Shown here: positions 38,928-60,869 of the stretch, one piece after another
Layout: each line of letters opens with the position of its first letter
Numbering within the stretch: the first letter of the stretch is position 1
Source of the DNA: Burkholderiales bacterium
GTDB taxonomy: Bacteria > Pseudomonadota > Gammaproteobacteria > Burkholderiales > Burkholderiaceae_C
NCBI GenBank assembly: GCA_030604135.1
Contig: JAUVWL010000001.1
Coordinates: 124,001 to 188,000, forward strand
Reading direction: 5' to 3'
DNA length: 64,000 bases
The notes under the pieces: model-generated
The model's input: only the letters and a program-made list of their open reading frames with translations
Told to the model about the DNA's origin: nothing
The model's database searches: none
Program-made: the position numbers and the translations under genes

Positions 38928-40058
38928 TCACTCGCGCGGCCACCAGGTCAGCAGGCGTTTCATGGCCGCCACGTCACCGCAGTGGTCGGCTGCATAGCCC
39001 GGCATCGAGTTCAACGTGGACTGCCACGCCGGTTCCCTCAGAGCGCGGATCAATGCCTGAACCGCAGGCGACGTGAGGGCGGTTTTGAGGCAGACGATCA
39101 GATAGCGTTCGTCGGTCAGCGGAACAAAGCCCAGCCCGAGCTGCTGAGCCGCGTAGGCCGTGCCCAGGCCGGCATCGGCGGCACCGGCCGCAACGGCCTG
39201 GGCGACCGCCGCATGGGATGCTTCGATGTGTTCGTAGCCGTTGATGTCGATCGGGTCGAGCCCTTGTTGTGTCAGCAACTCATCGATCAAAAGGCGCGTT
39301 CCGGTGCCGCGGGCGCGGTTGACGTAGCGCGCCTGCAGGCGGGCGACGTCGTCCAGGCCTCGCAAACGCAGCGGGTTGCCCGGTGCCACGATCAGCCCCT
39401 GTGTGCGGCGTGCGAACCCGATGATCTTGTGCGTGCCCAGGCGCAGAAGGGGTCGGTAGGTGCGGGCGCTGTGGCTGAGGGCGCCGGCGAAGGGCTGGGT
39501 GTGGAACCCTGCCACGGTGCAGCGCCCCTCGTTGAGCGCCCGGATGGCGTCGACACTGCCGCAGAAGCGCAGATCGAGGTGCAGCCTTGACGCGCGAGGC
39601 CGTTCGGGTTGGCCCAGTCCGGCAGCGAAGTCCTGCAAAGCGGTCAGGGCGTGGTCGTGGCTGGCATACATCACCAGTTCATGGCCGGTGGCTGCGCCAT
39701 CGCTGTCGAGCACCTGAGAAAAAACGCGCTCCAGATCGGCCTTGAGCGAGGCCAGCTGAGGACCCAGCCGGGCCTGGGCCAGGCGTTCGGCCATGAGCAG
39801 ACGTTGCCCTACCGGGCTCAACACAGCGGCCTGGCCGCGCTCCCAGACCAGCAGCTCGCGCCCGAGTTCGGACTCCCATTGACGCAGCAGGCCCCAGACG
39901 TGCCGGTAGGACAGACCCAGCGCGCGAGCGGCGGCCGAGATGGAGCCGCGTTCGTGCACCGCATGCAACACATCCATCATGGGGTTGCGCAAGGGTGCGG
40001 CCGGAGCGGGCACAGCCGCATCGGGTCGCAGGGTGTAGGTGAGCTCGACGTGTCGCAT
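38928..40058 (-). CDS. ModE-type HTH regulator fused to a PBP-like domain (tungstate/molybdate regulator)
   Basis: LHAVHERGSISAAARALGLSYRHVWGLLRQWE HTH, C-terminal PBP-like domain; divergent from tup operon. Confidence 0.82.
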   Translation of the reverse strand: MRHVELTYTLRPDAAVPAPAAPLRNPMMDVLHAVHERGSISAAARALGLSYRHVWGLLRQWESELGRELLVWERGQAAVLSPVGQRLLMAERLAQARLGPQLASLKADLERVFSQVLDSDGAATGHELVMYASHDHALTALQDFAAGLGQPERPRASRLHLDLRFCGSVDAIRALNEGRCTVAGFHTQPFAGALSHSARTYRPLLRLGTHKIIGFARRTQGLIVAPGNPLRLRGLDDVARLQARYVNRARGTGTRLLIDELLTQQGLDPIDINGYEHIEASHAAVAQAVAAGAADAGLGTAYAAQQLGLGFVPLTDERYLIVCLKTALTSPAVQALIRALREPAWQSTLNSMPGYAADHCGDVAAMKRLLTWWPRE

Positions 40059-40171
40059 GGCGCAAGTGTGCCCGACGCCCCTGGATATGAAATAGACCAC
40101 CTATGTGCGTGGGTTCATACCGCGTCTTCACGTAGCCGCAATGGGCCCCGTACTGGTTATGCTGCGGCGCA

Positions 40172-40900
40172 ATGAACACCTTCTCGGACAGCTTTTCGAC
40201 CGCCTTGCAGTTGCTCCTGTCTGCAGACCCGGGCCTATGGACCATTGTCATGCGGTCGCTGGCCGTCAGTGCCACGGCCTGCCTGATCGGGTGTGTCATC
40301 GGTTTGCCCCTGGGTGCCTGGCTCGGCGTGCTGCGGTTTCCCGGTCGAGGCGCGGTGCTGGTGGTGCTCAACACCTTGCTGGCCCTGCCGGCGGTGTTGG
40401 TGGGCTTGGTCATCTACCTGTTGCTCTCGCGTTCGGGGCCGTTGGGCTTTCTGGGCTGGCTGTTCAGCTTTCAGGCCATGGTGCTGGCCCAGGTGGTGCT
40501 GGTGGTGCCAGTGGTCACGGCGCTGACGCGCCAGGTGGTGGAGGATGCTGACCGGGCCAATGGCGAACAGCTGGCTTCACTGGGCGCCAGGCCCTGGTTG
40601 CGCAGCCTGATCCTGGCATGGGATGAGCGCTTTGCACTGTTGACCGTGGTGATCACGGCCTTTGGTCGCGCAATTTCAGAGGTCGGGGCGGTGATGATCG
40701 TGGGCGGCAACATCGATGGCTTCACGCGGGTCATGACCACGGCCATCGCACTGGAGACGAGCAAGGGCGACCTGCCACTGGCGTTGGGGCTCGGTCTGGT
40801 TTTGCTGGCGGTGGTGCTGCTGCTCAATGCGTTGGTTGGCTTGCTGCGCCGATGGCGTGAGCGCGCCGACACCTTGCCGTCCGGCCTGATAGCGACATGA
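40172..40900 (+). CDS. tupB: Tungstate-type ABC transporter permease (TupB-like)
   Basis: AISEVGAVMIVGGNIDGFTRVMTTAIALETSKGD EAA-loop region. Confidence 0.85.
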   Translation: MNTFSDSFSTALQLLLSADPGLWTIVMRSLAVSATACLIGCVIGLPLGAWLGVLRFPGRGAVLVVLNTLLALPAVLVGLVIYLLLSRSGPLGFLGWLFSFQAMVLAQVVLVVPVVTALTRQVVEDADRANGEQLASLGARPWLRSLILAWDERFALLTVVITAFGRAISEVGAVMIVGGNIDGFTRVMTTAIALETSKGDLPLALGLGLVLLAVVLLLNALVGLLRRWRERADTLPSGLIAT

Positions 40901-41646
40901 CCGGCATGCCCACGACCGATGTGGTGGTGTCGCTGGACGGTGTGTCCGTCCGTCTGGGTTCTGCGGCGCAGGTGCCAGCACTGTCCGGCGTGAGTCTGAA
41001 GCTGCATGCCGGCGAGCGCGTGGCTCTGGTGGGCGCCAATGGCAGCGGCAAGAGCACCCTCTTGCGCAGCCTGCATGGGCTGCTGCCGCTCAGTGCAGGC
41101 CGGCTGCAATCGCTGCCGGGCGTGCGCATGGCCATGCTGTTCCAGCGGCCGCATCTGCTGCGGCTGAGCGTGCGACGCAACGTGGCGCTGGGGCTGTGGT
41201 TGTCGGGCCTGCCCTGGAAGGAGGCGGGTGTGCGTGCCGAGCAGGCGCTGGCGCGGGTGGGGCTGGACCACCTGGCTTCCCGCAATGGGCGGGCCTTGTC
41301 CGGGGGGCAACAACAACGGGTAGCGCTGGCTCGTGCCTGGGCGCTTCGCCCCGACGTCTGGTTGCTCGACGAGCCCACGGCCAGCCTGGACCCGCATGCC
41401 AAGCGCGAGGTCGAGACGCTCATTGCAGAGTTCGGGCGGGAACCTGCGGTGCCGGGCGGGCGCCCTCCGACGTTTGTCTTTGCCAGTCACAACCTGGGTC
41501 AGGTCAAGCGTCTGGCCAGTCGCGTCATCTACCTGGAGCAAGGGCGGGTGCGGGCTGATCTGCCCGTAGCCGAGTTCTTCGATCAGGGACGCCTGGCAGC
41601 GTGTTCGCCGCAGGCCAGCGAGTTTGTCAAGGGAGAATCCACGTGA
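40897..41646 (+). CDS. tupC: ABC transporter ATPase (TupC-like)
   Basis: GANGSGKSTLLRSL Walker A, LSGGQQQRVALARA, WLLDEPTASLD. Confidence 0.88.
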   Translation: MTGMPTTDVVVSLDGVSVRLGSAAQVPALSGVSLKLHAGERVALVGANGSGKSTLLRSLHGLLPLSAGRLQSLPGVRMAMLFQRPHLLRLSVRRNVALGLWLSGLPWKEAGVRAEQALARVGLDHLASRNGRALSGGQQQRVALARAWALRPDVWLLDEPTASLDPHAKREVETLIAEFGREPAVPGGRPPTFVFASHNLGQVKRLASRVIYLEQGRVRADLPVAEFFDQGRLAACSPQASEFVKGEST

Positions 41647-42485
41647 CTGCCTTCGCTTCTTTTGGTCGTGGGCTTGTACCACGGCTGCTCGCGGCTGCTC
41701 TGGTAACCACGGGCTTGCTCAGTGGCACCGCAGCACTGGCGCAGGGCAGCATTGTTGTGGCTTCGACAACGTCCACCGAGCAGTCGGGCCTGTTCGGTCA
41801 TATCCTGCCTCGGTTCAAGCAGGCCACCGGCATCGATGTCAAGGTGGTGGCACTGGGCACGGGCCAGGCGATCGACATGGCGCGCCGCGGTGACGCCGAC
41901 GTGCTGTTCGTGCACGACAAGGTGGCCGAGGAGAAGTTCGTGGCCGATGGCTTTGGTGTCAAGCGGCTGGAGGTGATGTACAACGACTTCCTGCTGGTGG
42001 GGCCCAGGGCCGATCCGGTTGGCACCAAAGGCTCGGATGTGGTGGCGGCGCTCAAGAAGGTGGCTGCGGCCAACGCGCCCTTCATTTCCCGAGGTGACAA
42101 GAGCGGTACCCACGCTGCCGAACTTCGCTTCTGGAAGATGACGGAAACCGATGCCAACAAGGGACGTGGCTACAGGGAGTGTGGTTGCGGCATGGGACCG
42201 GCGCTGAACATGGCGGCGTCCAGTGGAGCCTATGTGCTGACCGATCGCGGTACCTGGCTCAACTTCAGGAACCGGGCGGATCTGGACGTTCTGGTCCAGG
42301 GCGACCAGCGCCTGTTCAACCAGTACGGCGTGATGCTGGTCAGCAGCGCCAGGCATCCGCATGTCAGGACCAGTGCTGGCCAGAAATTCATCGACTGGGT
42401 GACGGGCCCGGCCGGACAGGCAGTGATCGCCAGCTACAAGATCGGTGGCGAGCAGCTGTTCTTTCCCAACGCGCAGAAGCCTTGA
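41643..42485 (+). CDS. tupA: Tungstate-type substrate-binding protein (TupA-like)
   Basis: VVASTTSTEQSGLFGHILPRFKQATGIDVKVVALGTGQAIDMARRGDADVLFVHD; GTG start overlapping tupC stop. Confidence 0.88.
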   Translation: MTAFASFGRGLVPRLLAAALVTTGLLSGTAALAQGSIVVASTTSTEQSGLFGHILPRFKQATGIDVKVVALGTGQAIDMARRGDADVLFVHDKVAEEKFVADGFGVKRLEVMYNDFLLVGPRADPVGTKGSDVVAALKKVAAANAPFISRGDKSGTHAAELRFWKMTETDANKGRGYRECGCGMGPALNMAASSGAYVLTDRGTWLNFRNRADLDVLVQGDQRLFNQYGVMLVSSARHPHVRTSAGQKFIDWVTGPAGQAVIASYKIGGEQLFFPNAQKP

Positions 42486-42644
42486 CGGCGATGAAGCCCA
42501 TGATGGACATAACCCTGTTCCATTTCTGAACACAGGTCAGCCGATGTTGGCATGGCATGCTTCTTGTTGCAGGATCGGGGATGAGACAGCGTGCGATCGC
42601 CTGCGGGGGATCGTTTGCCACAGCGACATGTTGCGGAGACAACC

Positions 42645-44738
42645 ATGAATCCACGAGCCATCTTCGTTCCTACTGCTTTACAAGCAGCCATCTGGCTGGC
42701 CCTCACCGGTACCGCACAGGCACAGGTGGTCTTGCAGGAGGTGGTGGTCACCGCCAACCGCCAGGAGCAGCAGAGCTTTGACGCTCCCGCAGCCATTCAG
42801 GCGGTGGGGCGCGATGTGATCGAGGCGGCTGGACCGCAGGTCAACCTGTCGGAGTCGCTCAACCGGGTGCCGGGCATCACGGTGCTGAATCGCCAGAACT
42901 ACGCCCAGGATTTGCAGCTGTCGATTCGCGGATCCGGATCACGTTCGCCTTTCGGCATTCGTGGCTCGCGGCTGATCGTGGACGGCATTCCGGCCACCAT
43001 GCCCGACGGGCAGGGCCAGGCCTCGACGATCAGCCTGCCGTCTGCGGGTCGCATCGAGGTACTGCGGGGGCCGCTGGCCCAGCTGTATGGCAACTCGTCG
43101 GCGGGCGTGGTGCAGGTGTTCACGGCCGACGGGCCCGAAAAGCCGGAATTGCGGGGCAGCCTCGACGCCGGGTCGAACGGCCTTCGCCGCTGGGGTCTGC
43201 AGACGGCTGGACAGCAGGGGGCGGTCAACTACGTGCTTGATCTAAGTGACTTTCGCACCGACGGCTGGCGCCAGAACAGCGCGGCTGAGCGGCAGCATCT
43301 CAACGCCCGCCTGCGCACGCCACTGGGCGAGCGGACCCGCCTGACCTTGGTGGCCAACGTGTTTGACCAGCCGGTCTCGGGCGACCCCCTGGGTCTGACC
43401 CGGGCACAGCTGGCCGAGAACCCTCGCCAGGCGGACATCCGGTCGACCGAGTACCAGGCGGGCAAGGATGTGTCGCAGCGGCAGCTCGGGCTGGTGCTGG
43501 ACCAGAAGCTGGACGACCGCAGTGAGCTGATGGCCCGGGTGTACGCCGGGCAGCGCGACCTGGACAACCGGTTGTCGATTCCGCTGGTGGCGCAGCAGGC
43601 CCCCACAGCGGCTGGCGGCATCGTCGACCTGGATCGGCAATACAGCGGGGCCGGCCTACGTTACAGCCGGAGCACGCCGCTCGGACAGGGGCAACTGAGT
43701 TACAGCGTCGGGCTGGACGTGGAGCGCATGAGCGAGCGCCGGCGGGGCTTCATCAACAACTTCGGGTCCCGGGGTGAGCTCAAGCGGGACGAGGACGATA
43801 CCGTGCAGAGCACCGGTGTCTACGCCCAGGCCGACTGGGCCATCAACGAGGACTGGAGTGCCGTGGCCGGTCTGAGGGCCAACCGGGTGCGCTTCGAGGT
43901 GGAGGACTTCTTCGTTCGGCCGGGCAACCCGGACGACAGCGGTCAGGCCCGGTTCTCGGCCACCAACCCGGTGATCGGTTTCACACGGCATCTGGGTCCG
44001 GACAGCAACCTGTATGTCAACATGGGCCGTGGCTTTGAAACACCGACCTTCACCGAACTGGCCTACAGAACCGGTGGCAGTGGACCCAACCTCGACCTGA
44101 AAGCGGCCCGAAGCACCCATGTCGAGCTGGGCTACAAGACCCGCCTGACGGCGCAGCAGCGGCTGGATGTGGCCTTGTTCCACATCGGGACCACGAACGA
44201 GATCGTGGTGGCTTCCAGCAGTGGCGGTCGCACCATCTACACCAACGCGGGCAAGACGCGGCGCTCGGGCATCGAGGTGGCGCACAGCGCACAGTGGACA
44301 CCCGAGTGGCAGACCCACCTGGCCTTCTCGACCTTGAATGCCCGCTTTGCCGACGCCTTTGCCAGCAGCAGCGGTGCGCAGGTGCCCAAGGGAAACCGCA
44401 TACCCGGCACGCTGGACCGTCAGCTGTTTGCCGAGCTGGCTTGGAAGCCGCAGGCCTTGCCAGGTCTGACCAGCGCGCTGGAGGTGGTGCACCTGGGTCG
44501 CATGGCGGTGGATGACCTCAATTCCGACCGCACAGATGCGGCCACGGTGTTCAACCTGCGTCTGGGTTGGGAGCAGCCGGTGGGCAACTGGCGCTTCAGG
44601 TCCTACCTGCGCCTGGACAACCTGGCCGACAAGGCCTATGTGGGTTCGGTCATTGCGAATGAAGGCAACCGCCGCTTCTTTGAGCCGGCCCCCGGGCGGC
44701 AGTGGGGTGTGGGTGCGAGTCTGAGCTACGCCTTCTGA
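42645..44738 (+). CDS. pqqU: TonB-dependent receptor, PqqU/YncD-like
   Basis: NRQNYAQDLQLSIRGSGSRSPFGIRGSRLIVDGIPATMPDGQGQ, RGFETPTFTELAYR, NEIVVASSSGGRTIYTNAGKTRRSG, C-terminal Phe; blocks match E. coli YncD as recalled. Confidence 0.8.
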   Translation: MNPRAIFVPTALQAAIWLALTGTAQAQVVLQEVVVTANRQEQQSFDAPAAIQAVGRDVIEAAGPQVNLSESLNRVPGITVLNRQNYAQDLQLSIRGSGSRSPFGIRGSRLIVDGIPATMPDGQGQASTISLPSAGRIEVLRGPLAQLYGNSSAGVVQVFTADGPEKPELRGSLDAGSNGLRRWGLQTAGQQGAVNYVLDLSDFRTDGWRQNSAAERQHLNARLRTPLGERTRLTLVANVFDQPVSGDPLGLTRAQLAENPRQADIRSTEYQAGKDVSQRQLGLVLDQKLDDRSELMARVYAGQRDLDNRLSIPLVAQQAPTAAGGIVDLDRQYSGAGLRYSRSTPLGQGQLSYSVGLDVERMSERRRGFINNFGSRGELKRDEDDTVQSTGVYAQADWAINEDWSAVAGLRANRVRFEVEDFFVRPGNPDDSGQARFSATNPVIGFTRHLGPDSNLYVNMGRGFETPTFTELAYRTGGSGPNLDLKAARSTHVELGYKTRLTAQQRLDVALFHIGTTNEIVVASSSGGRTIYTNAGKTRRSGIEVAHSAQWTPEWQTHLAFSTLNARFADAFASSSGAQVPKGNRIPGTLDRQLFAELAWKPQALPGLTSALEVVHLGRMAVDDLNSDRTDAATVFNLRLGWEQPVGNWRFRSYLRLDNLADKAYVGSVIANEGNRRFFEPAPGRQWGVGASLSYAF

Positions 44739-44749
44739 GCGCGCCGGGA

Positions 44750-45499
44750 TCAGGCAAGCGCCTGACCCGGCGCGAGCTGGCGCAGTACCTCGGCATGAAA
44801 GTCGGGTTCGGTGGCGCCGGCCATGAAGGTGTCGATCGGACCGTCGAAGCGCATCTGGCCCTGGTGTAGCAGCAGCAGCCGGTCGGCCCCGCGCGCTTCT
44901 TCAATCAGGTGGGTGGCCCAGAGCACGGCCATGCCCCGGTTGCGGCACAGGGTCTGCATGGTGGTCAGCAGCTGCTGGCGCGAGGCCGGGTCTAGCCCGA
45001 CGGTGGCTTCGTCCATCAGCAGCACGCGCGGCTCGTGCAGCAGAGCCCGCACCAGTTCCACCTTGCGTCGGTTGCCGCCCGACAGCGCCCGCACCACAGC
45101 GCCGGCCTGCGTACCCAGCCCCAGGGTTTGCAGGTGGTGTTCAATGCGCTGCCTGGCCAGGCGGCGCGGGATGCCGTGCAGGTCGGTGTGGAACAGCAGG
45201 TTGGCCCGCACCGTCAGGTCCAGGTCAAGCGCCATCTGCTGGAACACCACACCCAGACCCGCCAGCGCACGCGCCGGTTCCCTTCGCATGTCATGCCCGA
45301 GCACCTGCACCTCGCCCTTGTCCGGGCTGAACAGACCGGTGAGCAACTGCAGCAGGGTGGACTTGCCAGCCCCGTTGGGGCCCAGCAGGGCCACCATCTC
45401 ACCCGACTGGAGCGTGAGGCTCACATCTTTCAGGGCCGGCTTGCCGCCATAGGACTTGTGCAGGCCGGTGGCACTCAGCAGGGTTTGCGGCCCGGTCAT
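44750..45499 (-). CDS. ABC ATPase of PQQ-alcohol dehydrogenase-associated system
   Basis: GPNGAGKSTLLQLLTGLFSPDKGEVQVLGHDM, LSGGNRRKVELVRALLHEPRVLLMDEATVGLD. Confidence 0.88.
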   Translation of the reverse strand: MTGPQTLLSATGLHKSYGGKPALKDVSLTLQSGEMVALLGPNGAGKSTLLQLLTGLFSPDKGEVQVLGHDMRREPARALAGLGVVFQQMALDLDLTVRANLLFHTDLHGIPRRLARQRIEHHLQTLGLGTQAGAVVRALSGGNRRKVELVRALLHEPRVLLMDEATVGLDPASRQQLLTTMQTLCRNRGMAVLWATHLIEEARGADRLLLLHQGQMRFDGPIDTFMAGATEPDFHAEVLRQLAPGQALA

Positions 45500-46476
45500 C
45501 GGTCGGTCTCGCTTCGGTGGAGCAGGTTCATGCGGGCAAGAAGGCTGCGTTCGCGGGCCACGGTGGCCAGCAGGGCGCGCCGGTAGTCCTGGGTATTCAG
45601 GTAATCGAGTTGCTGATCGTAGCGCGCCAGGGCCTGGCGGTGCCGTTCGGTGTGCATGGCCGCGCGAAAGGCGTCGTGCAGACGCTGGATGACGAGCTCG
45701 GGTGTGCCGGCTGGTGCGGCCAGGCCCCACGGCGAGGTGTACACCGCTTGCGGGTAGCCCATTTCGACCAGTGTCGGCACGTCGGGCCAGCGGGGGCTGC
45801 GTTGGGCACTGAAGATGCCCAGCAGGCGCAGCTTGCCCTGGTCCACCCACGGGGCGAAGCCGGTCGAGTTGACGCCGGCCATCAGTTGCCCGCCAGCCAC
45901 CGCCAGCATCTGGTCGGCCGTGCCCTTGTAGGGCACATGAACGTAGCGCACGCCTTGACCGAGCAGGATCTCCTCCATGGCCAGATGGGCGGTGGTACCG
46001 ATGCCGGTGGAGCCCAGCAGCAGTTCGCCCGGGTGCCGCAAGGCCCAGTCGATCATGTCCTGCAGGCTGCGCCAGGCGCTGGCCGCTGGCACCAGGATGC
46101 CGAAGGTGGTGCCCGAGACCTGAACGATGGGGCTGAAATCCTCCAGCGGGTTCCAGGGGACCGCGTGCATCAGGGCGTGGCGGTAGACGGTGATGGGCAC
46201 CTGGCCGATGGTGTAGCCGTCGGACTCGGCCATTTTCAGCGCTGGTGCGACCTGTGTGCCGGCCGCGCCCGGCCGGTTGATCACGATGAGGCGCTGGCCG
46301 AGCAGGGGCTCGGCTTCCTCGCACAGGATGCGCAGGGTCAGGTCGGTGGCGCCACCGGCGGGCCAGGGAACGATCAGCTGGATGGGACGGTCCGGCCAGC
46401 CGGAGGGGGCTGCCTGTGTGCCGGGGACCATGCAGGCCGAGGCCAGCAGGCCGCCCAGCAGACGTCGCCGAGACAT
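45496..46476 (-). CDS. Bug/TctC-family periplasmic substrate-binding protein
   Basis: WPDRPIQLIVPWPAGGATDLTLRILCEEAEPLLGQRLIVINRPGAAGTQVAPALKMAESDGYTIGQV; overlaps ATPase start by 4 nt. Confidence 0.9.
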   Translation of the reverse strand: MSRRRLLGGLLASACMVPGTQAAPSGWPDRPIQLIVPWPAGGATDLTLRILCEEAEPLLGQRLIVINRPGAAGTQVAPALKMAESDGYTIGQVPITVYRHALMHAVPWNPLEDFSPIVQVSGTTFGILVPAASAWRSLQDMIDWALRHPGELLLGSTGIGTTAHLAMEEILLGQGVRYVHVPYKGTADQMLAVAGGQLMAGVNSTGFAPWVDQGKLRLLGIFSAQRSPRWPDVPTLVEMGYPQAVYTSPWGLAAPAGTPELVIQRLHDAFRAAMHTERHRQALARYDQQLDYLNTQDYRRALLATVARERSLLARMNLLHRSETDR

Positions 46477-46750: not shown

Positions 46751-47752
46751 ATGAGCCTTTCTCGCCGATCCTTTCATTCACTCAGCCGCCTGGGGCTGTG
46801 CCTGCTGCTGGCGGGCATCGGCCTGGGGGCACAGGCCCAGCCGGGCAGCACGGTCTATGTGTCCAGCGAGAAGGACAAGAAGATCTACATGTTCAATGCC
46901 AAGGGCGACCGCATCGGCGCCATCGACACCTGCGAGCGTCCGCGCCACATGGTGTTCAGCCTGGACAGGAAGACCATGTACGTGTGCTGCGGCAACAGCA
47001 ACGAGCTGGGCATCATCGACGTGGCCACGAACAAGATGGTCCGCACCATGGAGCTGGGCGAAAGCCCGGAAATCTTCGATTTCAACAGCGACCAGAGCAT
47101 CATTTACGTGTCGATCGAGGACGACAACGTGATGGCCGCCTATGACATGGCCACCGGCAAGGAGCTGTTCACGGTCGCCACCGGGGGTGAGCCCGAGGGC
47201 ATTTACGTCACCAAGGACAACAAGTTTGCCTACGTCACCTCCGAGGTGGCCAACGTGGTCCATGTGATCGACCTGAACAGCCGCAAGGTGGTCAAGGACA
47301 TCAAGGTGGGCAAGCGACCGCGTCGCTTCATGCCTGCGGCCAATGGCGCCGAGCTGTGGGTGAGTGACGAGCTGAGCAACTCGGTCAGCATCATCGACAT
47401 GGCCAGCCAGGCGGTCAAACACACGGTGGTGTTCAAGGTGCAGGGCTTCCGTGATTCGGATGTGATGCCGGTGGGCATGGTGCCCAGCCTGGATGGCAAG
47501 AGCATGTGGGTGGGGCTGGGTCGCGCCAACCACGTGGCCGAGGTGGATGTGGCCACGCGACAGGTCAAGCAGCTGGTGCTGGCTGGCCAGCGTGCCTGGG
47601 GTGTCGACCTCAGCCCGGATGGCAAGACGCTGTACGTGGCCAACGGCCTGTCGGACGACATGACCATCATCGATGTTTCGTCGGCCAGGGCCAGGCCGGT
47701 GCGAACGGTGTCGGTCGGCCGGGTGCCGCACTCGGTGCTGGTGAGCCGATGA
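46751..47752 (+). CDS. PQQ-dependent catabolism-associated YVTN beta-propeller protein
   Basis: Signal peptide and repeated blades (VYVSSEKDKKIYMFNAKGDRIGAIDT..., LSPDGKTLYVANGLSDDMTIIDV). Confidence 0.9.
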   Translation: MSLSRRSFHSLSRLGLCLLLAGIGLGAQAQPGSTVYVSSEKDKKIYMFNAKGDRIGAIDTCERPRHMVFSLDRKTMYVCCGNSNELGIIDVATNKMVRTMELGESPEIFDFNSDQSIIYVSIEDDNVMAAYDMATGKELFTVATGGEPEGIYVTKDNKFAYVTSEVANVVHVIDLNSRKVVKDIKVGKRPRRFMPAANGAELWVSDELSNSVSIIDMASQAVKHTVVFKVQGFRDSDVMPVGMVPSLDGKSMWVGLGRANHVAEVDVATRQVKQLVLAGQRAWGVDLSPDGKTLYVANGLSDDMTIIDVSSARARPVRTVSVGRVPHSVLVSR

Positions 47753-48948
47753 GGGCAGGGCGCTGCTGGTGGCTGGCCGGCTGTCTGGCACTGGCCAGCG
47801 CCTGGCCTGCGCTGCAGGCCTGGGCCGCCACGCAGGTGCCGGTGGCGGTGGTGTCGCTGGAGCGCGACCCCCGCTACGCACCCCGCCGCGCGGAGCGTGC
47901 CTACCCGGGTCACCCCACCACGCCCGCCATCGAAGGCGTTCGACTGGCAGCGTCTGACTCGGCCTATGAGCTGGGCACGCAGGACCTGGCACTGGACATC
48001 AAAGCTTTCCCCCTGGCCGGTGCCGACGATCTGGGACCGTTGTTGCAGCGGCTCAAGGCAGCCAGGGTCCAGCATGTGGTGGCCGACCTGCCGGTGCCCA
48101 TGCTGCGCGAACTCGCGCGTCAGGCGCCACAGGTTCTCGGGCCGACGCTGTTGTTCAACGTGTCGCAGGACGCTGACGCCTTGCGCGGTGCGGACTGCCA
48201 GCCCCACCTGTTGCACACCTACCCGAGCCGCGCCATGACGGGCGACGCCCTGACGCAGTACCTGGCCTCGCGCCGCTGGACCAAGGTGCTGGTGTTGCAC
48301 GGCCCACTGGAAGACGATGCGGTGCAGCTGGAGGCCTTCAGGCGCTCGGCCAAACGCTTTGGCATCCAGATCGTGCAGGAGCGGCCGTTCAAGATCAGCG
48401 GTGATCCCCGGGAAAGAGACCTCGGCAATCTGCGCCTGCTCACCGGCGACAGGCAACACGAGGTGGTGGTGGTGATCGACAGCGATGGCGAGTTTGCGCG
48501 CACCGTGCCCTACGCCACCCAGTGGCCGAGACCGGTGGCGGGCGCGGCCGGCCTGGTGCCCCTGGCCTGGCACCCGCAGTGGGAACGGCATGGCGCGCCC
48601 CAGCTGACGCGGCGTTTCCTGCGCCAGACCCAGCGGGCCATGCAGGGGCATGACTGGGCGGCCTGGATGGCCGGTCGCGCCATTGCCGCGGCGGTGCTGG
48701 CCCAGCCCAAGGCCGGCGCAGCGGCGCAGCTGCAGGCCTTGCGCAGCGGTGCGGTCACGCTGGACGGTTTCAAGGGCAAGGCGCTCACCTTCAGACCGTG
48801 GGACGGGCAGTTGCGCCAGCCGGTGTTCCTGACGCACGGTGATGGCGTCATTGGCATGGCGCCCCTGGACGGCGTGTTGCACCCGACCGAAACCATGGAC
48901 ACCCTGGGTGTCGACCGCGCGGAGAGTGCATGCAAGGCCCGCCCATAG
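47749..48948 (+). CDS. ABC substrate-binding protein, PQQ-alcohol dehydrogenase system
   Basis: Signal peptide; type I PBP-like fold; between propeller and ABC permease genes; 4-nt overlap with the propeller gene. Confidence 0.82.
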   Translation: MRAGRCWWLAGCLALASAWPALQAWAATQVPVAVVSLERDPRYAPRRAERAYPGHPTTPAIEGVRLAASDSAYELGTQDLALDIKAFPLAGADDLGPLLQRLKAARVQHVVADLPVPMLRELARQAPQVLGPTLLFNVSQDADALRGADCQPHLLHTYPSRAMTGDALTQYLASRRWTKVLVLHGPLEDDAVQLEAFRRSAKRFGIQIVQERPFKISGDPRERDLGNLRLLTGDRQHEVVVVIDSDGEFARTVPYATQWPRPVAGAAGLVPLAWHPQWERHGAPQLTRRFLRQTQRAMQGHDWAAWMAGRAIAAAVLAQPKAGAAAQLQALRSGAVTLDGFKGKALTFRPWDGQLRQPVFLTHGDGVIGMAPLDGVLHPTETMDTLGVDRAESACKARP

Positions 48949-49748
48949 GGCTCCATCTGCTGCGGGCCCTTCGCGCCGTGGTCGGGCGCGAAGTGTCCCG
49001 CTTTTTGCGCCAGCCTTCGCGCCTGGGCTCGGCCCTGGTGCGACCGCTGTTGTGGTTCGTGGTGTTTGCGGCCGGCTTTCACAACGTGTTCGGGGTGGCG
49101 GTGCAGCCACCCTACGAGACCTACATCGAATACAAGGAATACATGTTGCCCGGCCTGCTGGGCATGATCGCGCTGTTCAATGGCATGCAGAGCTCGCTGT
49201 CCATGGTCTACGACCGGGAAATGGGGGTGATGCGCCTGCTGCTGACGGCGCCGCTGCCCCGCGGCTGGCTGCTGGCCTTCAAGCTGCTGGCCGGTACCTG
49301 CCTGTCGCTGCTGCAGATGGTGGTTTTTCTCTTGGTCGCGTGGCTGTTCGGCGTGGCCGTGCTGCCGTGGAACCTGCCGCTGGTGCTGCTGACCATGGCC
49401 AGTTGTGCCGTCATGCTGGCCGCGCTGGGCCTGGTGCTGTCGGTCTATGTGCGACAGCTGGAAAACTTTGCCGGCACCATGAACTTCGTGATCTTCCCGA
49501 TGTTCTTCATCAGCCCGGCCCTTTATCCTTTGTGGAAGTTGGAGGAGTCGGGTGCCTGGTGGCTGCACCAGGCGGCGCAGCTCAACCCGTTCAGCCACGG
49601 CGTCGAGGCGATACGCTTTGCCCTGCATGGGCAGGTGAACCTCGTGGCCTGGGCTGTGCTGCTGGGCTGCTCGGCCGTTTTTTTTGTGCTGGCCCTCTGG
49701 GGCTATGACCCGCAACGTGGCTGGATACGCCAACGCGGAGCCGCCTGA
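48930..49748 (+). CDS. ABC-2 type permease (alcohol/PQQ-system, PedC-like)
   Basis: Six hydrophobic segments; FPMFFISPALYPLW; MQSSLSMVYDREMGVMRLLLTAPLPR. Confidence 0.87.
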   Translation: MQGPPIGLHLLRALRAVVGREVSRFLRQPSRLGSALVRPLLWFVVFAAGFHNVFGVAVQPPYETYIEYKEYMLPGLLGMIALFNGMQSSLSMVYDREMGVMRLLLTAPLPRGWLLAFKLLAGTCLSLLQMVVFLLVAWLFGVAVLPWNLPLVLLTMASCAVMLAALGLVLSVYVRQLENFAGTMNFVIFPMFFISPALYPLWKLEESGAWWLHQAAQLNPFSHGVEAIRFALHGQVNLVAWAVLLGCSAVFFVLALWGYDPQRGWIRQRGAA

Positions 49749-50578
49749 TGGAACGCGGCAGGAGAGACAAGATGAACTGTCCAATGCGACGTCGTGCTTT
49801 TGTCGGCTGGGGCGTGGCCACCAGCCTCTTGTCTGCCGGCCCGCTGCGCGCGGCCGAAGACCACACCGGAGGTGACCCACTGGGGTCCATGCAATGGCCA
49901 GGCTTGCGCCGCCAGTTCATTGGTCAGGCGCCCATGCGCTTTTCGGATCAGGTGGTGGTCAAGGGCCCGGCCTTTGCCGACGATGCGATGAACGTCCCCA
50001 TCCTGTTCGATGCCCGGGCACTGGCCGGCGAGGGTGGGGGCATTCGGCGCATTCGCGTGGTGGCCGACCGCAACCCGGTGCGCGAGGTGCTCGACTTTGA
50101 ACCGATGCGCTCGCTGCCGGTGCTGGCTTTTCGACTGCGGCTGGAGCAGGCCTCGCCGGTGCGTGCCTTGGTCGAGACGGCGGACGGTCACTGGCATGTC
50201 GGCAGCACCTGGGTCCAGGCCGCCGGGGGCGGCTGCACGGTGCCCGGTGCCACCCGCGCCGACGGCAGCTGGAGCCAGACGCTCAACCAGGTGCAGGCGC
50301 GATTCTTCAGCAATGTGCTGGAGGGCAGCCGCCGCCTGCGCCTGCGTGTGATGCACCCCATGGACACCGGTCTGGTGGCCGGCATCCCGGCCTTCTACCT
50401 GGAGCAGCTGGAACTGCTGGATGCGACCGGCCAACCCTGGTGGAAGCTGGGCTTGCACGAGCCGGTTTCCGAGAACCCCATCATCACGTTCGAAATGCCG
50501 ACCGCTGCTCAGGGCAGTTTCAGGTTGACAGGGCGGGACAACAACGGCAACCGAATCGACATGGAGCTGCTGTCATGA
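49748..50578 (+). CDS. Quinoprotein dehydrogenase-associated SoxYZ-like carrier protein
   Basis: SoxY-like GGGCT cysteine motif (VQAAGGGCTVPG) followed by a SoxZ-like half; twin start, M at 49748 or 49772 before the signal peptide. Confidence 0.82.
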   Translation: MERGRRDKMNCPMRRRAFVGWGVATSLLSAGPLRAAEDHTGGDPLGSMQWPGLRRQFIGQAPMRFSDQVVVKGPAFADDAMNVPILFDARALAGEGGGIRRIRVVADRNPVREVLDFEPMRSLPVLAFRLRLEQASPVRALVETADGHWHVGSTWVQAAGGGCTVPGATRADGSWSQTLNQVQARFFSNVLEGSRRLRLRVMHPMDTGLVAGIPAFYLEQLELLDATGQPWWKLGLHEPVSENPIITFEMPTAAQGSFRLTGRDNNGNRIDMELLS

Positions 50579-51567
50579 GGCGCGTGTTTGCCAGTGCGCT
50601 GCTGGCCGCCATCGTTTGGGGCCAGCCGCCGGCACACAGCCAGCCGGCCATCATGGGGCAGGCGCAGGTGCCACGCCCCGACATGTCGCGCCTGGACTAC
50701 GACCTGAAGGCGCGTCAGATTGCGCCGCGCACCTGGGTGATCGAGGGCGCGGTGGAGGACTTCAGCCGGCAAAACGGCTGCAACATCATCAACACCGCCT
50801 TCATTGCCACCGGAGAAGGGGTGGTGGTGGTCAACACCGGCCCCTCTCGCCTGTATGGCGAGCAGCAGCGGCGCCTGATTGCCCAGACCACGTCCGAACC
50901 GGTGGTGCAGGTGCTCAACCTGAATCTGCACCCCGACTATTTCTTCGGCAACCAGGCCTGGGCCGACCGGCCGGTGCAGGCGCTGGCGGGCACCATGGCC
51001 GGCATGCAGGCCCAGGGTGCGGTGTATGCCGACAACCTTTACCGCCTCTGCGGCGACTGGATGAAGGGCACCGAGTCGACGCCGGCCGCCCAGCCGGTTG
51101 CACCCGGAACCCGTCGGATGGGTCAGCACCAGCTGGAGCTGCGGCGCCTCGAAGGCCACACGCCCGATGACCTCGTGCTGCTGGACCACAGCACCGGCGT
51201 CGTGTTTGCAGGGGGGCTGGTTTTTTCGAACCGCGTGCCAACCACACCCAATGCCGACTTTACCCGCTGGAAAGCCAGCCTGGAGCAGCTGGATCGTTTG
51301 TTGTCTTCGGGCAGCTTCCGCGTGGTGGTGCCCAGCCACGGACCGGTTCACACCGGGCGGGACGGTGTGGCACAGACCCGTGACTGGCTGGACTGGTTGA
51401 CGGGTCACATGGACAAGCAGGCGGAAGCCGGGCTGGACCTGGCCGAGGTCCTGGCGCTGCCGGTGCCGGACCGTTTTGGCACCTGGGCGGCGCAGCCGGT
51501 GGAACTGCACCGCACCCTGACGCAGTGGTACCCCGCATTCGAGCAGCGCGCCCTGGGAGGACGCTGA
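50575..51567 (+). CDS. Quinoprotein relay-type MBL-fold metallohydrolase 1 (SoxH-related)
   Basis: Signal peptide; NLHPDYFFGN, GHTPDDLVLLD, FAGGLVF, PSHGPV. Confidence 0.85.
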   Translation: MRRVFASALLAAIVWGQPPAHSQPAIMGQAQVPRPDMSRLDYDLKARQIAPRTWVIEGAVEDFSRQNGCNIINTAFIATGEGVVVVNTGPSRLYGEQQRRLIAQTTSEPVVQVLNLNLHPDYFFGNQAWADRPVQALAGTMAGMQAQGAVYADNLYRLCGDWMKGTESTPAAQPVAPGTRRMGQHQLELRRLEGHTPDDLVLLDHSTGVVFAGGLVFSNRVPTTPNADFTRWKASLEQLDRLLSSGSFRVVVPSHGPVHTGRDGVAQTRDWLDWLTGHMDKQAEAGLDLAEVLALPVPDRFGTWAAQPVELHRTLTQWYPAFEQRALGGR

Positions 51568-51883: not shown

Positions 51884-53602
51884 GTGAAACGTACGCTACT
51901 GAGCCTTTTGGTCATGGCCGCCACCGCACACGTCAGTGCGCAGGTGACCGACACCATGATTGCCAACGACGCCAAGACCACCGACAGCGTGCTGACCAAT
52001 GGTCTGGGCACCCAGCTGCAGCGCCATTCGCCGCTGACCGGCATCAACGCCCGCAACATCAACCGGCTGGTACCCACGTGGTCGATGTCCTTTGGCGGCG
52101 AAAAGCAGCGGGGCCAGCAGTCACAACCCTTGGTCCACAACGGCAAGATGTTCGTGACAGCGTCCTACTCGCGCATTTTTGCGGTGGACGCCAAGACCGG
52201 CCGCAAGCTCTGGAAGTACGAGCACCGCCTGCCTGAAGGCATCATGCCCTGCTGCGACGTGATCAACCGCGGCGCTGCCCTGTACGACAACCTGGTGATT
52301 TTCGGCACACTCGACGCCCAGCTGGTGGCGCTGGACCAGGAAACCGGCCGTGTGGTCTGGCGTGAGCGCATCGACGACTACAGCGCGGGCTACAGCTACA
52401 CGGCGGCGCCGCTGATCGCCGAAGGTCTGCTCATGACCGGTGTCTCGGGGGGTGAGTTTGGTGTCATCGGTCGCGTCGAGGCGCGTGACCCCAAGACCGG
52501 CAAGATGGTCTGGGTGCGTCCGGTTGTCGAAGGCCACATGGGCTTCAAGGACGGCAAAGAGAATGGCATCAGTGGCACCACCAACGCCACCTGGCCGGGC
52601 GAGATGTGGAAGACCGGCGGCGCGGCCACCTGGATGGGTGGCAGCTACGACCCCAAGACCGGCCTCGCCTATTTCGGCACCGGCAACCCGGGCCCCTGGA
52701 ACAGCCACCTGCGCAAGGGCGACAACCTGTTCTCTTCTTCGACGGTGGCAATCGACCCCAAGACCGGGCAGATCGTTTGGCACTACCAGAACACGCCCAA
52801 CGACGGCTGGGACTTCGACGGCACCAACGAGTTCGTGACCTTCGACATGGACGGCAAGCGCATGGGAGCCAAAGCCGACCGCAATGGCTTCTTCTACGTG
52901 AACGATGCCGCTACCGGCAAGCTGGTCAATGCTTTCCCCTTCGTGACCAAGACCACCTGGGCCACAGGCATCGACCTCAAGACCGGTCGGCCGAACTTCG
53001 TGCCGGATAACCGCCCGGGCGATCCGACCGGTGAAGGCGGCGACGGCAACAAGGGCAAGGCGGTGTTTGCGGCCCCGGCCTTCCTCGGTGGCAAGAACCA
53101 GATGCCAATGGCCTACAGTCCCAAGACCGGTCTGTTCTACGTGCCGGCCAACGAGTGGGGCATGGAGATCTGGAACGAGCCCGTCACCTACAAGAAGGGC
53201 GCAGCCTACCTGGGCGCTGGCTTCACCATCAAGCCGCTGTACGACGAATACATCGGTTCGTTGCGGGCCATCAACCCCAAGACCGGCAAGATCGAGTGGG
53301 AAGTGAAGAACGAGGCGCCGCTGTGGGGTGGCGTGCTCAGCGTCGGCGATCTGGTGTTCTGGGGCACGCCCGAAGGCTACCTGAAGGCAGCCGACGCCAA
53401 GACCGGCAAGATCGTCTGGCAGTTCCAGACCGGCTCGGGCATCGTGGCGCCGCCGGTGACCTGGATGCAGGACGGCGAGCAGTACATCAGCGTGGTCTCT
53501 GGCTGGGGTGGTGCGGTTCCGCTTTGGGGCGGCGAAGTGGCCAAGAAGGTCAACTTCCTCGAGCAGGGCGGTTCCGTCTGGACCTTCAAGTTGCTGAAGT
53601 AA
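51884..53602 (+). CDS. PQQ-dependent alcohol dehydrogenase, methanol/ethanol family
   Basis: Signal peptide, W-motif propeller repeats, vicinal CC (MPCCDV), [16 protein letters not shown]. Confidence 0.95.
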
Positions 53603-56914: not shown

Positions 56915-57662
56915 CCGGATACTCCGTATCTGAAGGTGCGGGCATCAGGCCTACAGCCAGTGCATCGGCCACCAGCGCGTCGGCAAAACGGTCCAGCCGC
57001 ATCAGCTGCAGGCCCAGCAGGATGTTGCCGGTCAGGCCCGTGACCGTGGTCAGCAGGGCGATGCCCAGACCCCCGGTGAGGTCGCGCAGCAGTCGGCTCG
57101 ACTGGCTGGGGTCGAAGCTCTCGACCTGACCCAGCTGCAGGGCCAGGATGGAAAAGCCGATCACCTTGCCCAGCAGTCCGAGCTTGAGCTGGATGCCGTT
57201 GAGCCACCAGGCCATCTCGTGGGGTCCATGGGCGCGTTCACCCAGCAGCTGCACCGCGATGCTGGTGGGTTGTCCGGGGCGGCTGGCGTGTCGCAGGTAT
57301 TCGCCGACCCAGCCCTCGCCAGAGCGCAGGCCGGTCCCGCGCAGCCGATCCAGTTGCTGACGCTGCTGGCCCAGCACCCAGGCGCGCCGGCCGGCCCACA
57401 GGGAGCAGCCCACGAACAGCGCCACGATGACCAGGGTCAGGCGGGTCGGATCGGCCTGGACCAGGCGGTGCCATGCGCCGGCCACCCACAGCAGGTAGGC
57501 GCCGAACAGCAGCAGGCCCATGTAGGCCAGCCAGAGCAGGAAAAGCCCTCGATCGGCCTGCTCCAGTGACGAGGGCCCTCGCCGAACGCCGGGCAGGTGC
57601 CTGACGACGGCAGCGCCCATCATCTGCCGGTGCGACTGTGCCGGCGGGTTGCTGGTGCTCAC
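56889..57662 (-). CDS. MotA/TolQ/ExbB-family proton channel protein
   Basis: LKLGLLGKVIGFSILALQLGQ and LTGGLGIALLTTVTGLTGNILLGLQLMRLDR. Confidence 0.8.
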   Translation of the reverse strand: MSTSNPPAQSHRQMMGAAVVRHLPGVRRGPSSLEQADRGLFLLWLAYMGLLLFGAYLLWVAGAWHRLVQADPTRLTLVIVALFVGCSLWAGRRAWVLGQQRQQLDRLRGTGLRSGEGWVGEYLRHASRPGQPTSIAVQLLGERAHGPHEMAWWLNGIQLKLGLLGKVIGFSILALQLGQVESFDPSQSSRLLRDLTGGLGIALLTTVTGLTGNILLGLQLMRLDRFADALVADALAVGLMPAPSDTEYPDGDRPDGS

Positions 57663-58798
57663 GGCGTCGCCTGGGGGTGCAGCAGGCGGGATTCATCGTC
57701 GCTGCGGAACACGATGGGCACGACCCGACCCAGGGGTGCCTGCTGCACCAGCCTGACCACCTGCTCATGGTGCGGCGATCTGCTGCAGACCGGGTCGGCC
57801 TGGGTCGGGTCGCCGGTGATCAGGAAGGCCTGGCAGCGGCATCCGCCGAAGTCCTTGTGGCGCTCGTCACAGTCGCGGCAAGGAGGCTTCATCCAGGCGT
57901 CACCCCGAAAGGTGTTGAAGGCCTGACTGCGCCGCCATATGTCGGCCACCGGCGAGGTGGTGACGTTGGGCAATGACAGGCCCGGCAGGTCGCGGGCGTT
58001 GTGGCAGGGCATGGCCATGCCGTCCGGGGCCACCGACAGGAACACCGATCCCCAGCCGTTCATGCAGGCCTTGGGCCGCTCTTCGAAATAGTCGGGCACC
58101 ACGAACAGCACACGGCAGCGGTGCCCGCCGGCCTGGGCCTCCTGCTCGGTGCGGAAGGCCTTGACTTCGGCCTCGGCCCGCTCCAGTTCTTCGCGCGTGG
58201 GCATCAGGTGGTCGCGGTTGACCCAGGCCCAGCCGTAGTACTGGGTGTTGGCCAGTTCCAGGTACTCGGCCTCAAGGGCCACGGCCATGTCGATGATCTT
58301 GCGCACATGGGGCAAGTTGTGCCGGTGCAGCACGCAGTTCATGACCATCGGCCAGTCGTGCGCCTTGATCAGTCGGGCCACCTTCTGTTTCAGGTCGAAG
58401 GTGCGTGTGTGGCTGAGAAAGTCATTGAGTTCGCGGGTCGAATCCTGGAAGGACAGCTGCACATGGTCCAGGCCGGCGTCCTTGAGCCTCTGGGCGCGGG
58501 CCGGTGTCAGACCGACACCCGAAGTGATCAGATTGGTGTAGTAGCCCAGCCGGTGCGCTTCCTGCACGAGTTCTTCCAGGTCGTCCCGCAGCAGGGGTTC
58601 CCCACCGGAAAAGCCCAGTTGCGCCGCGCCGAGCGCTCGGGCCTGGCGCATCACATCCACCCACTGTGCCGTGGTCAGCTCATCGCGCAGCCGCGCATGC
58701 TGCGTGGGGTTGTAGCAGAACACGCAATGCAGCGGGCAGCGGTAGGTCAGCTCCGCCAGCAGCCACAGCGGCGGGCCCGGCTCAGTCGATCCAGCCAC
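57659..58798 (-). CDS. pqqE: PqqA peptide cyclase PqqE (radical SAM)
   Basis: YRCPLHCVFCYNP CxxxCxxC; SPASM Cys-rich C-terminus. Confidence 0.96.
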   Translation of the reverse strand: MAGSTEPGPPLWLLAELTYRCPLHCVFCYNPTQHARLRDELTTAQWVDVMRQARALGAAQLGFSGGEPLLRDDLEELVQEAHRLGYYTNLITSGVGLTPARAQRLKDAGLDHVQLSFQDSTRELNDFLSHTRTFDLKQKVARLIKAHDWPMVMNCVLHRHNLPHVRKIIDMAVALEAEYLELANTQYYGWAWVNRDHLMPTREELERAEAEVKAFRTEQEAQAGGHRCRVLFVVPDYFEERPKACMNGWGSVFLSVAPDGMAMPCHNARDLPGLSLPNVTTSPVADIWRRSQAFNTFRGDAWMKPPCRDCDERHKDFGGCRCQAFLITGDPTQADPVCSRSPHHEQVVRLVQQAPLGRVVPIVFRSDDESRLLHPQATP

Positions 58799-59045
58799 GG
58801 CGCTGGCCCTCCTCGAGCAGGGCGCGCACCTCGGGCGCGATCCCCGTCACACCAAAGGCGCCTTCAAGCTCTGCCACAATGGTGTCCAGCGTTCGCTCCC
58901 CATTGCACCGCTGCAGAATCTCGGCAGCGCTCTGGTTGAGCTGGACCATGCCTTCGGGGTAGAGCAGCACCCATTTTTGCTGGGCCTCCTCGTACTGCAG
59001 CCGGAAGCGGCGCGAGAGCCGGGGTTGTGCGGGCAGTGTGTTCAT
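58782..59045 (-). CDS. pqqD: PQQ biosynthesis peptide chaperone PqqD
   Basis: RLSRRFRLQYEEAQQKWVLLYPEGMVQLNQSAAEILQRCNGERTLD. Confidence 0.95.
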   Translation of the reverse strand: MNTLPAQPRLSRRFRLQYEEAQQKWVLLYPEGMVQLNQSAAEILQRCNGERTLDTIVAELEGAFGVTGIAPEVRALLEEGQRRGWID

Positions 59046-59061: not shown

Positions 59062-59793
59062 TCATTGCGCGGCCCGTTCGATGGCGTCCAGCATGGTCCA
59101 CAGGATGTCCAGCTTGAACTGCAGGATGTCCAGGGCGCGGTGCTGGCCGGCACGGGTGGTGAAGTGTTCCAGTGTGACCTGCAGGCCGTGCTCGACGTCG
59201 CGGCTGGCCAGCGGGATGCGGCTGCGAAAATAGGCCAGCCCGTCGGCCTCGATCCAGGGGTAGTGGGTGGGCCAGGTCGCCAGCCGGTCCTTGTGGATCT
59301 GCGGCGCGAACATCTCGGTCAGCGACGAGCAGACGGCCTCCTGCCAGGGTGCGCGGGCGGCGAAGTTCACGTAGGCATCGCAGGCAAAACGCACGCCTGG
59401 CACCACGCCTTGCAGGGACCAGAGCTCGTCGCGAGGAATACCCACCGCCTCGCCCAGGCGAGTCCAGGCCTCGATGCCGCCGGCGGCCGAACCCTGGTGG
59501 TCGCCATGGCCGTCGTGGTCGAGGATGCGGTCGATCCATTTGCGCCGGTGCTCGCGGTCCGGCATGTTGGCCAGAATGGCCGCGTCCTTGCGCGGAATGC
59601 AGATCTGGTAGTAGAAGCGGTTGGCCACCCAGCAGCGGATCTCGTCCGGTGTGCAGCCACCGGCGTTCATGCGCACATTGAACGGGTGGTGGATGTGGTA
59701 CGCGCGCCCCTTGTTGCGCAGCTGGTCCTCGAACTCGGCGGGTGTCCAGGCGGGCAGGTGGTCGTCGGTGCGCAGGGTACGGGCGATGTCCAC
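59062..59793 (-). CDS. pqqC: Pyrroloquinoline-quinone synthase PqqC
   Basis: [56 protein letters not shown]. Confidence 0.97.
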
Positions 59794-59795
59794 GG

Positions 59796-60713
59796 TCAGA
59801 TCTCCAGTTCCATGCCATCAAAGGCGACCTCGATGCCGTGCGCCTCCAGAACGCGTCGTTCGGGCGCGTCTTCCACCAGCATCGGGTTGGTGTTGTTGAT
59901 GTGTATGAGGATTTTTCGGGTGCCAGCCGGCAGGCGATCGAGCTGTTCGATCATCCCGCCAGGGCCACTTTGCGGCAGGTGTCCCATGTCCAGCGCGGTC
60001 TTGCCCGACAGGCCCAGGCGCTGCATCTCGTCGTTGGTCCAGAAGGTGCCATCAACCAGCACCACGGCACAGCCCGACATGAGTTCCAGCAGTTCCGGAC
60101 CGACGGCGGCCAGCCCAGGGGCGTAGAAGAGCTGGGCTGCGCTGGCCGGATTGCGCGCCAGAAGGCCGATGTTGTCCCCCGGGCGGGGGCGGCCCCGGAA
60201 GGGGGAGTAGGGGGGCGGCTGTGAACTGAGCGAGACGGTGCGGATGTCCAGCCCGGACAGTTCCGGCAAATGCACCGGACGACCATCAACCGGCAGCTCG
60301 CGAATCTGCGTGCCACAGTAATGGGACAGGATGCGGGTGAGCGGAAACCCGTCCGAGATGTCCGAGACCACCTCGGGCGTGGCCAGCAGGGGCAATGGTG
60401 TGCGGCGCTCGCGCAGCATCAGCAGGCCGGTGACATGGTCGATCTGGGCGTCCATCAGCAGCACGGCGGCGATGCCGCTGTCGCGGATCTGGCGGGCGGG
60501 CTGCAGAACCGGGTTTTCCCGGATCTGCTGCAGGATGTCGGGCGATGCGTTGACCAGCAGCCAGTCGGTGCCGTCCTGGCTGATCGCAATCGAAGACTGG
60601 GTGCGGGCACGCGCCCGCAGTTGGCCGCGACGCAGGCCGTCGCAGTTCGGACAGTTGCAGTTCCACTGCGGAAAGCCACCGCCGGCCGAAGAACCGAGCA
60701 CGCGGATGCGCAT
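59796..60713 (-). CDS. pqqB: PQQ biosynthesis protein PqqB
   Basis: [44 protein letters not shown]. Confidence 0.96.
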
Positions 60714-60741
60714 GAGTGTCAGACGTCTGGATGCGGGAAAC

Positions 60742-60775
60742 AAAAAGGGCGCACGGGTTCTTGGTCCGTGCGCCC
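60742..60775 (-). terminator. Rho-independent terminator/attenuator between pqqA and pqqB
   Basis: gggcgcacgg-N9-ccgtgcgccc; T-run on the minus strand. Confidence 0.75.
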
Positions 60776-60794: not shown

Positions 60795-60869
60795 TCAGCG
60801 ATTGGCGATGTACATCGTGATTTCAAACCCGAAGCGGAGGTCGGTGAAGGCGGGGGTGGTCCACTGCAT
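60795..60869 (-). CDS. pqqA: PQQ precursor peptide Pqq[25 protein letters not shown]
   Basis: Short ORF absent from the supplied track; conserved E-x3-Y (EITMY). Confidence 0.96.

Follow-up and report, generated by a model that had tools for sequence, protein, structure and literature searches.

The window analysed here, a stretch of 64,000 nucleotides from a 4-Mb Burkholderiales genome, contains an intact open reading frame that runs from ATG to stop without an internal stop and encodes a TonB-dependent receptor of 697 amino acids (Table 1). By eye, the N terminus comprises a signal peptide ending in TAQA followed by the TonB-box-like sequence QEVVVTA, and a Pfam scan detected the plug and the TonB-dependent beta-barrel above the Pfam cut-offs. 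On the 5' side and on the same strand, the three genes directly upstream of the receptor gene encode a TupBCA-type tungstate transporter, which was absent from an earlier note on this DNA. On the 3' side, as that note had stated, the receptor gene adjoins the genes for an ABC transporter of the PQQ-ADH type and a PQQ-dependent alcohol dehydrogenase (PQQ-ADH). PQQ, or pyrroloquinoline quinone, is a vitamin-like cofactor.

Table 1. Features of the window around the receptor gene and the basis of each assignment
Feature	Position	Strand	Basis
ModE-type HTH and PBP-domain regulator, divergent to tup	38928..40100	-	Family scans including Pfam
tupB-like tungstate ABC permease	40172..40900	+	NF041773 188 bits, below cut-off 320; NF038017 above cut-off
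tupC-like ABC ATPase	40897..41646	+	Family scans; place in operon
tupA-like tungstate-binding protein	41601..42485 (ORF bounds)	+	NF041772 213 bits, below cut-off 400, best by far
Palindrome TGTTCCATTTCTGAACA, candidate operator	42516..42532	+	112 nt before pqqU start
pqqU-like TonB-dependent receptor	42645..44738	+	ORF, Pfam, PDB match, signature residues, tree, fold search
ABC ATPase of PQQ-ADH systems, PedB-like	44750..45499	-	TIGR03864 312 bits, cut-off 302
Probable Bug/TctC-type substrate-binding protein	45496..46476	-	Read from ORF
PQQ-catabolism-associated beta-propeller, PedA2-like	46817..47752, start codon not fixed	+	TIGR03866 269 bits, just below cut-off 287
ABC substrate-binding protein of PQQ-ADH system, PedA1-like	47746..48948, start codon not fixed	+	TIGR03863 420 bits, cut-off 414
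ABC permease PedC	48930..49748	+	TIGR03861 340 bits, cut-off 241
Quinoprotein-associated SoxYZ-like carrier	49748..50578	+	TIGR04557 223 bits, cut-off 140
Quinoprotein relay zinc metallohydrolase 1	50440..51567 (ORF bounds, true start probably later)	+	TIGR04558 404 bits, cut-off 300
PQQ-dependent alcohol dehydrogenase, PedH-like	51884..53602	+	TIGR03075 744 bits, cut-off 480
pqqE	57659..58798	-	Above NCBIfam cut-off
pqqD	58782..59045	-	Above NCBIfam cut-off
pqqC	59062..59793	-	Above NCBIfam cut-off
pqqB	59796..60743	-	Above NCBIfam cut-off
pqqA, 24-aa precursor	60795..60869	-	Above NCBIfam cut-off

The locus had also been described as a complete PQQ biosynthesis locus next to the receptor gene. 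The completeness stands, with pqqA, pqqB, pqqC, pqqD and pqqE all scoring above the curated NCBIfam cut-offs, in support of the claim that the bacterium makes PQQ; "next to" is too loose, because 14 kb separate these genes, which are on the other strand, from the receptor gene. PQQ genes are present at the locus and iron genes are not, in agreement with the statement that the receptor gene is not part of an iron locus. The genome encodes TonB and quinoproteins, including a second PQQ-ADH outside the window (contig C26). The Bug/TctC-type gene overlaps the gene for the PedB-like ATPase, and Bug/TctC-like genes are found near pqqU in about a dozen further loci (cluster 2). A second metallohydrolase gene of the quinoprotein relay type adjoins pqqA (61967-63112, + strand); its scores reach the cut-off of neither relay family.

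In a phmmer search against the PDB, the top matches of the receptor were the structures of E. coli YncD/PqqU (6v81 and 9c4o), aligning with residues 31-697, while the next receptor, CirA, was matched with an E value of only 7e-12. The match to YncD is far beyond chance (E about 1e-149), and all three blocks from which the earlier note had recognised YncD (NRQNYAQDLQLSIRGSGSRSPFGIRGSRLIVDGIPATMPDGQGQ, EIVVASSSGGRTIYTNAGKTRR and YVGSVIANE) are present. Identity to E. coli PqqU is 43% over 658 aligned positions, end to end. Among the NCBIfam models, the PqqU model NF041535 was covered over its whole length with 625 bits, and the models for siderophore, haem and B12 receptors gave at most 128 bits; TIGR01783 (TonB-dependent siderophore receptor) reached 128 bits, below its cut-off of 223.5. 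The score of 625 bits is also below the curated cut-off of NF041535, which is 1200 bits, and thus NCBI's narrow naming rule would withhold the name PqqU from the receptor. On its sequence, the protein is filed here as a putative PqqU in the wider published sense, outside the narrow equivalog NF041535.

The structure of PqqU with PQQ has been solved, its site mutated, and a signature of Y/F/W99, R304 and R365 defined (Munder et al. 2025, PMC12124388). In the PDB alignment, with residue numbering confirmed against the E. coli K-12 pqqU gene, the receptor has F103, R304 and R366 at positions 99, 304 and 365 of this signature, and the other PQQ-contacting residues K274, R536, Q84, Q121 and Y481 are kept. 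Three PQQ-contacting positions are changed (Q308N, Q310L and N477T); according to reported mutants, Q308, Q310 and N477 are non-critical in E. coli (PMC12124388). The comparison of PQQ-binding residues proposed in the earlier note thus finds those kept that are important by mutation. Across 80 aligned homologues from genome contigs, K274, R304, R365 and R536 are present in 80 of 80, and Phe is at position 99 in all except L009, which has a gap in the plug. This homologue (L009:9965-11908, 60% identical) has an in-frame loss of the part of the plug with Q84, Y99 and Q121, is flanked by tupA and the gene for a Fis regulator followed by that for a tungsten-type aldehyde:ferredoxin oxidoreductase (AOR), and may be a decaying gene or an assembly error.

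In a maximum-likelihood tree, the receptor grouped with receptors of Hydrogenophaga and other Burkholderiales and with E. coli PqqU. A 100/100 branch separated this PqqU side from CirA, FepA, BtuB and FhuA and from three further receptors encoded in the same genome; siderophore receptors, the comparison proposed in the earlier note, and B12 receptors thus lie outside. Using an AlphaFold model of the receptor (pLDDT 82, pTM 0.83), a fold search returned the PqqU-PQQ complex 9c4o first (TM 0.89/0.94, E 1.7e-80) and 6v81 thereafter, and the next non-PqqU structure was FecA (4.5e-44).

We surveyed 151 genomes of the family, counting the receptor at E values up to 1e-60, and found the receptor in 81, pqqC in 33 and a TIGR03075 quinoprotein in 57. 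Receptor and quinoprotein occurred together in 51 of the 151 genomes (odds ratio 18, p about 1e-12), and the receptor was present in 26 of the 33 pqqC carriers versus 55 of the 118 other genomes (p 0.0014), both p-values being too small because shared ancestry of the genomes inflates significance. Moreover, of the 51 genomes with both pqqU and a TIGR03075 gene, 25 have the two no more than 15 kb apart, with 0.8 expected under random placement, and this linkage is spread across many genera; within the same distance of pqqC, the receptor gene was found in only 3 of 26 genomes. Neither pqqC nor a TIGR03075 quinoprotein was detected in 28 of the 81 receptor-bearing genomes, which may carry GSDH-type or other quinoproteins.

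In several more distant homologues (clusters 3 and 19), a gene of the GSDH family (glucose/sorbosone dehydrogenase) directly adjoins pqqU. This arrangement, sometimes with a cytochrome c gene in addition, was seen in L032, L057, L036, L024, L059, L062, L043, L051 and others. The GSDH neighbour is possibly a soluble quinoprotein sugar dehydrogenase, and such adjacency could predict partner enzymes.

The earlier note had read the protein as a PqqU/YncD-like PQQ receptor, and homology, tree, PQQ-site residues, nearest fold and locus support this reading. From the homology, the kept binding residues, the predicted fold, the neighbourhood, the co-occurrence with quinoproteins and PQQ synthesis, and a palindrome upstream of the gene that is described below, we conclude that the protein is very probably a PqqU-type TonB-dependent outer-membrane receptor that recovers free PQQ for periplasmic quinoproteins in a PQQ-making bacterium. 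We infer that it binds and transports PQQ, that it has a role in recycling, and that it is co-regulated with alcohol oxidation. PQQ would be made in the cytoplasm by the products of pqqABCDE, would be used in periplasmic alcohol dehydrogenases and, being small enough, could leak out across the outer membrane. The receptor would then bind free extracellular PQQ, either the cell's own or that of its neighbours, TonB would supply the energy for bringing PQQ back into the periplasm, and the returned PQQ would go to quinoproteins, for instance to the neighbouring PedH-like dehydrogenase.

The PedH-like dehydrogenase contains the motif DGWDFDG with the lanthanide-type Asp. Its best PDB match was to 6zcv/6zcw (1e-240, WDFDG aligned), which we take to be the lanthanide-dependent PedH, while 1flg, the calcium-type ExaA, has WDFSG; to judge from this residue, the dehydrogenase of the window may use a lanthanide. 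Together with the match of the neighbouring ABC genes to PedA1A2BC-type models, the alignment with PedH raises the alternative, in our view very unlikely, that lanthanides, or PQQ in complex with a lanthanide, enter through the receptor to serve the PedH-like enzyme, the receptor being the outer-membrane partner that the neighbouring PedA1A2BC-type lanthanide ABC transporter lacks. A PedA1A2BC-type system is needed for lanthanide-dependent growth of P. putida, and the outer-membrane route is unresolved there (PMC12997753, PMC6839425). However, position 274 of the receptor is Lys, as in all aligned homologues; K274 fills the PQQ metal site in E. coli PqqU, a proposed variant for metal co-transport has Glu at this position, and PQQ was seen without metal in the PqqU structure (all PMC12124388). 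The Lys at position 274 disfavours co-transport of PQQ with a metal. Equally improbable is that the receptor imports PQQ and a lanthanide together, or provides the PedH-like dehydrogenase with both of its cofactors. If true, this would account for the outer-membrane step, so far unresolved, by which bacteria with PedA1A2BC but no LutH take up lanthanides.

The genes 5' of the receptor gene suggest another alternative, namely that the receptor is the outer-membrane part of the TupBCA tungstate transporter, with tungstate or molybdate as its substrate, possibly together with a chelator. It is encoded on the tup strand at 159 bp from tupA, and in the relative L009 tup lies immediately before the receptor gene and the tungsten AOR gene after it. 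However, the adjacency of tup and pqqU is not conserved. In L001, the receptor of which is 94% identical, positions 40000-42472 and 42678-45500 of the window align as two blocks about 3.7 kb apart, and the interval between tupA and pqqU contains genes for a molybdate-type binding protein and a sulfite-oxidase-like protein, both recognised from sequence, as well as for an aldehyde dehydrogenase and a DUF779 protein, both recognised via homologues and directly preceding pqqU. Similarly, several kb separate tup from pqqU in L004 and L006, while in L002, L003 and L005 the receptor gene lies beside PQQ genes with no close tup operon within the fetched stretch; an aldehyde dehydrogenase gene upstream of pqqU is also found in L002, L003, L005 and L006. 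Because the relatives carry other genes in between, the adjacency looks secondary, and the window most likely lost the intervening genes by a deletion that brought tupA and pqqU together. Moreover, a tungsten-type AOR gene lies 6 kb past the window in the same genome, so that tup is accounted for by this enzyme and has its own job, and the PQQ-binding residues are kept in the receptor. With the adjacency unconserved and apparently the product of a deletion, we rejected the notion of a tungstate receptor as extremely unlikely. A search for a sigma-70 promoter or a terminator between tupA and pqqU found none, an uninformative result. We interpret the whole stretch as a region for alcohol-to-aldehyde-to-acid oxidation, plus systems that supply the two unusual cofactors.

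Finally, the chance that the protein is an ordinary receptor for siderophores or other metallophores, merely resembling PqqU, is next to negligible: it belongs to the same TonB-dependent receptor superfamily and has weak matches to siderophore-receptor models, but these scores are far below that of the PqqU model, tree and fold both place it with PqqU, there are no iron genes nearby, and the gene is linked to quinoproteins across the family.

Discussions of PqqU usually centre on scavenging by bacteria unable to make PQQ. The presence of the receptor in 26 of the 33 PQQ makers of the family, often beside PQQ-using enzymes, would fit PQQ that is leaked and shared in the community being regained by its makers, and PQQ recovery by makers would then belong to the alcohol-oxidation programme. 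That one bacterium can both make and import PQQ is already published: PQQ production and PqqU occur in one genome in 23% of the set of Munder et al. 2025, and pqqU showed little synteny with PQQ biosynthesis genes except in four Burkholderiales genomes, in which it is syntenic with the pqq operon (PMC12124388). The genome studied here is like those producers in having PQQ synthesis and the receptor together; it differs in that pqqU is tightly linked to quinoprotein genes and not to pqq biosynthesis, a linkage that was not found in the consulted sections of that paper (PMC12124388). Thus, what is added here is the linkage to quinoprotein genes, the high frequency of the receptor among the PQQ makers of the family, the account of the tungstate neighbours and the candidate operator.

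Besides the end-to-end identity, the signature, the predicted fold and K274/R304/R365/R536/Q84/Q121/Y481, the receptor shares with E. coli PqqU (6v81, 9c4o) a genomic trait, in that E. coli pqqU adjoins a YncE-type propeller gene and a related propeller gene lies a few genes away in the window. Differences are Phe for Tyr99 together with Q308N, Q310L and N477T, the ability of the host to make PQQ, which E. coli lacks, and the position of pqqU in an alcohol-oxidation locus. The ped/exa alcohol-oxidation clusters of Pseudomonas (PMC12997753) likewise combine a PedH-like lanthanide-type ADH with PedA1A2BC-type ABC genes; in contrast to these, a gene for a PqqU-type receptor is built into the locus of the window, and PqqU is unmentioned in that review (PMC12997753). 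LutH-type lanthanide receptors are also TonB-dependent receptors associated with lanthanide-type PQQ dehydrogenases; compared to LutH by its description only, the receptor of the window keeps the PQQ site without a metal-binding Glu.

The receptor gene sits with alcohol-oxidation genes and may be switched on together with them. The palindrome TGTTCCATTTCTGAACA is the sole perfect TGTTC-N7-GAACA within the window, can be made out at the corresponding position in the Hydrogenophaga relatives L001-L007, and is also present before pqqU in G127 and, in perfect form, in G017. The copy before pqqU differs at one position from TGTTCC-N5-GGAACA, which occurs in perfect form only twice in the whole 4-Mb genome (G000). 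One copy (G000:C20:192392-192408, equal to L082:9393-9409) lies 62 nt before the gene for a Fis-type regulator and also upstream of the divergent ferredoxin-AOR operon; the other (G000:C26:6988-7004) lies about 145 nt before the second PQQ-ADH gene. The remaining three sites with one mismatch fall within or next to long open frames that have no relation to the pathway. Allowing one mismatch, the genome contains 6 distinct sites versus 5 in the reversed-pattern control, hardly above it, and therefore the argument rests on the positions of the sites. From these positions, the palindrome may be an operator for pqqU, the second PQQ-ADH gene and the AOR operon, and their co-regulation, which the common palindrome suggests, is directly testable. 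An operator common to the family was rejected: with up to two mismatches, the palindrome precedes only 3 of 40 pqqU genes of the family (0.4 expected), and thus it is lineage-specific.

In a search for a sigma-54 promoter, TGGCAYG-N4-TTGT with an imperfect -12 element was found in the Hydrogenophaga relatives, some 20 nt beyond the palindrome; within the window, matches to the sigma-54 consensus numbered 17 versus 18.8 expected, no more than chance. Between pqqA and the AOR genes lies a gene for a 734-aa sigma-54-type activator with the GAFTGA motif (window 63089-64000, - strand, continuing to L082:6294). The regulator of the region might be this activator or the smaller Fis protein of 370 aa (L082:8218-9330).
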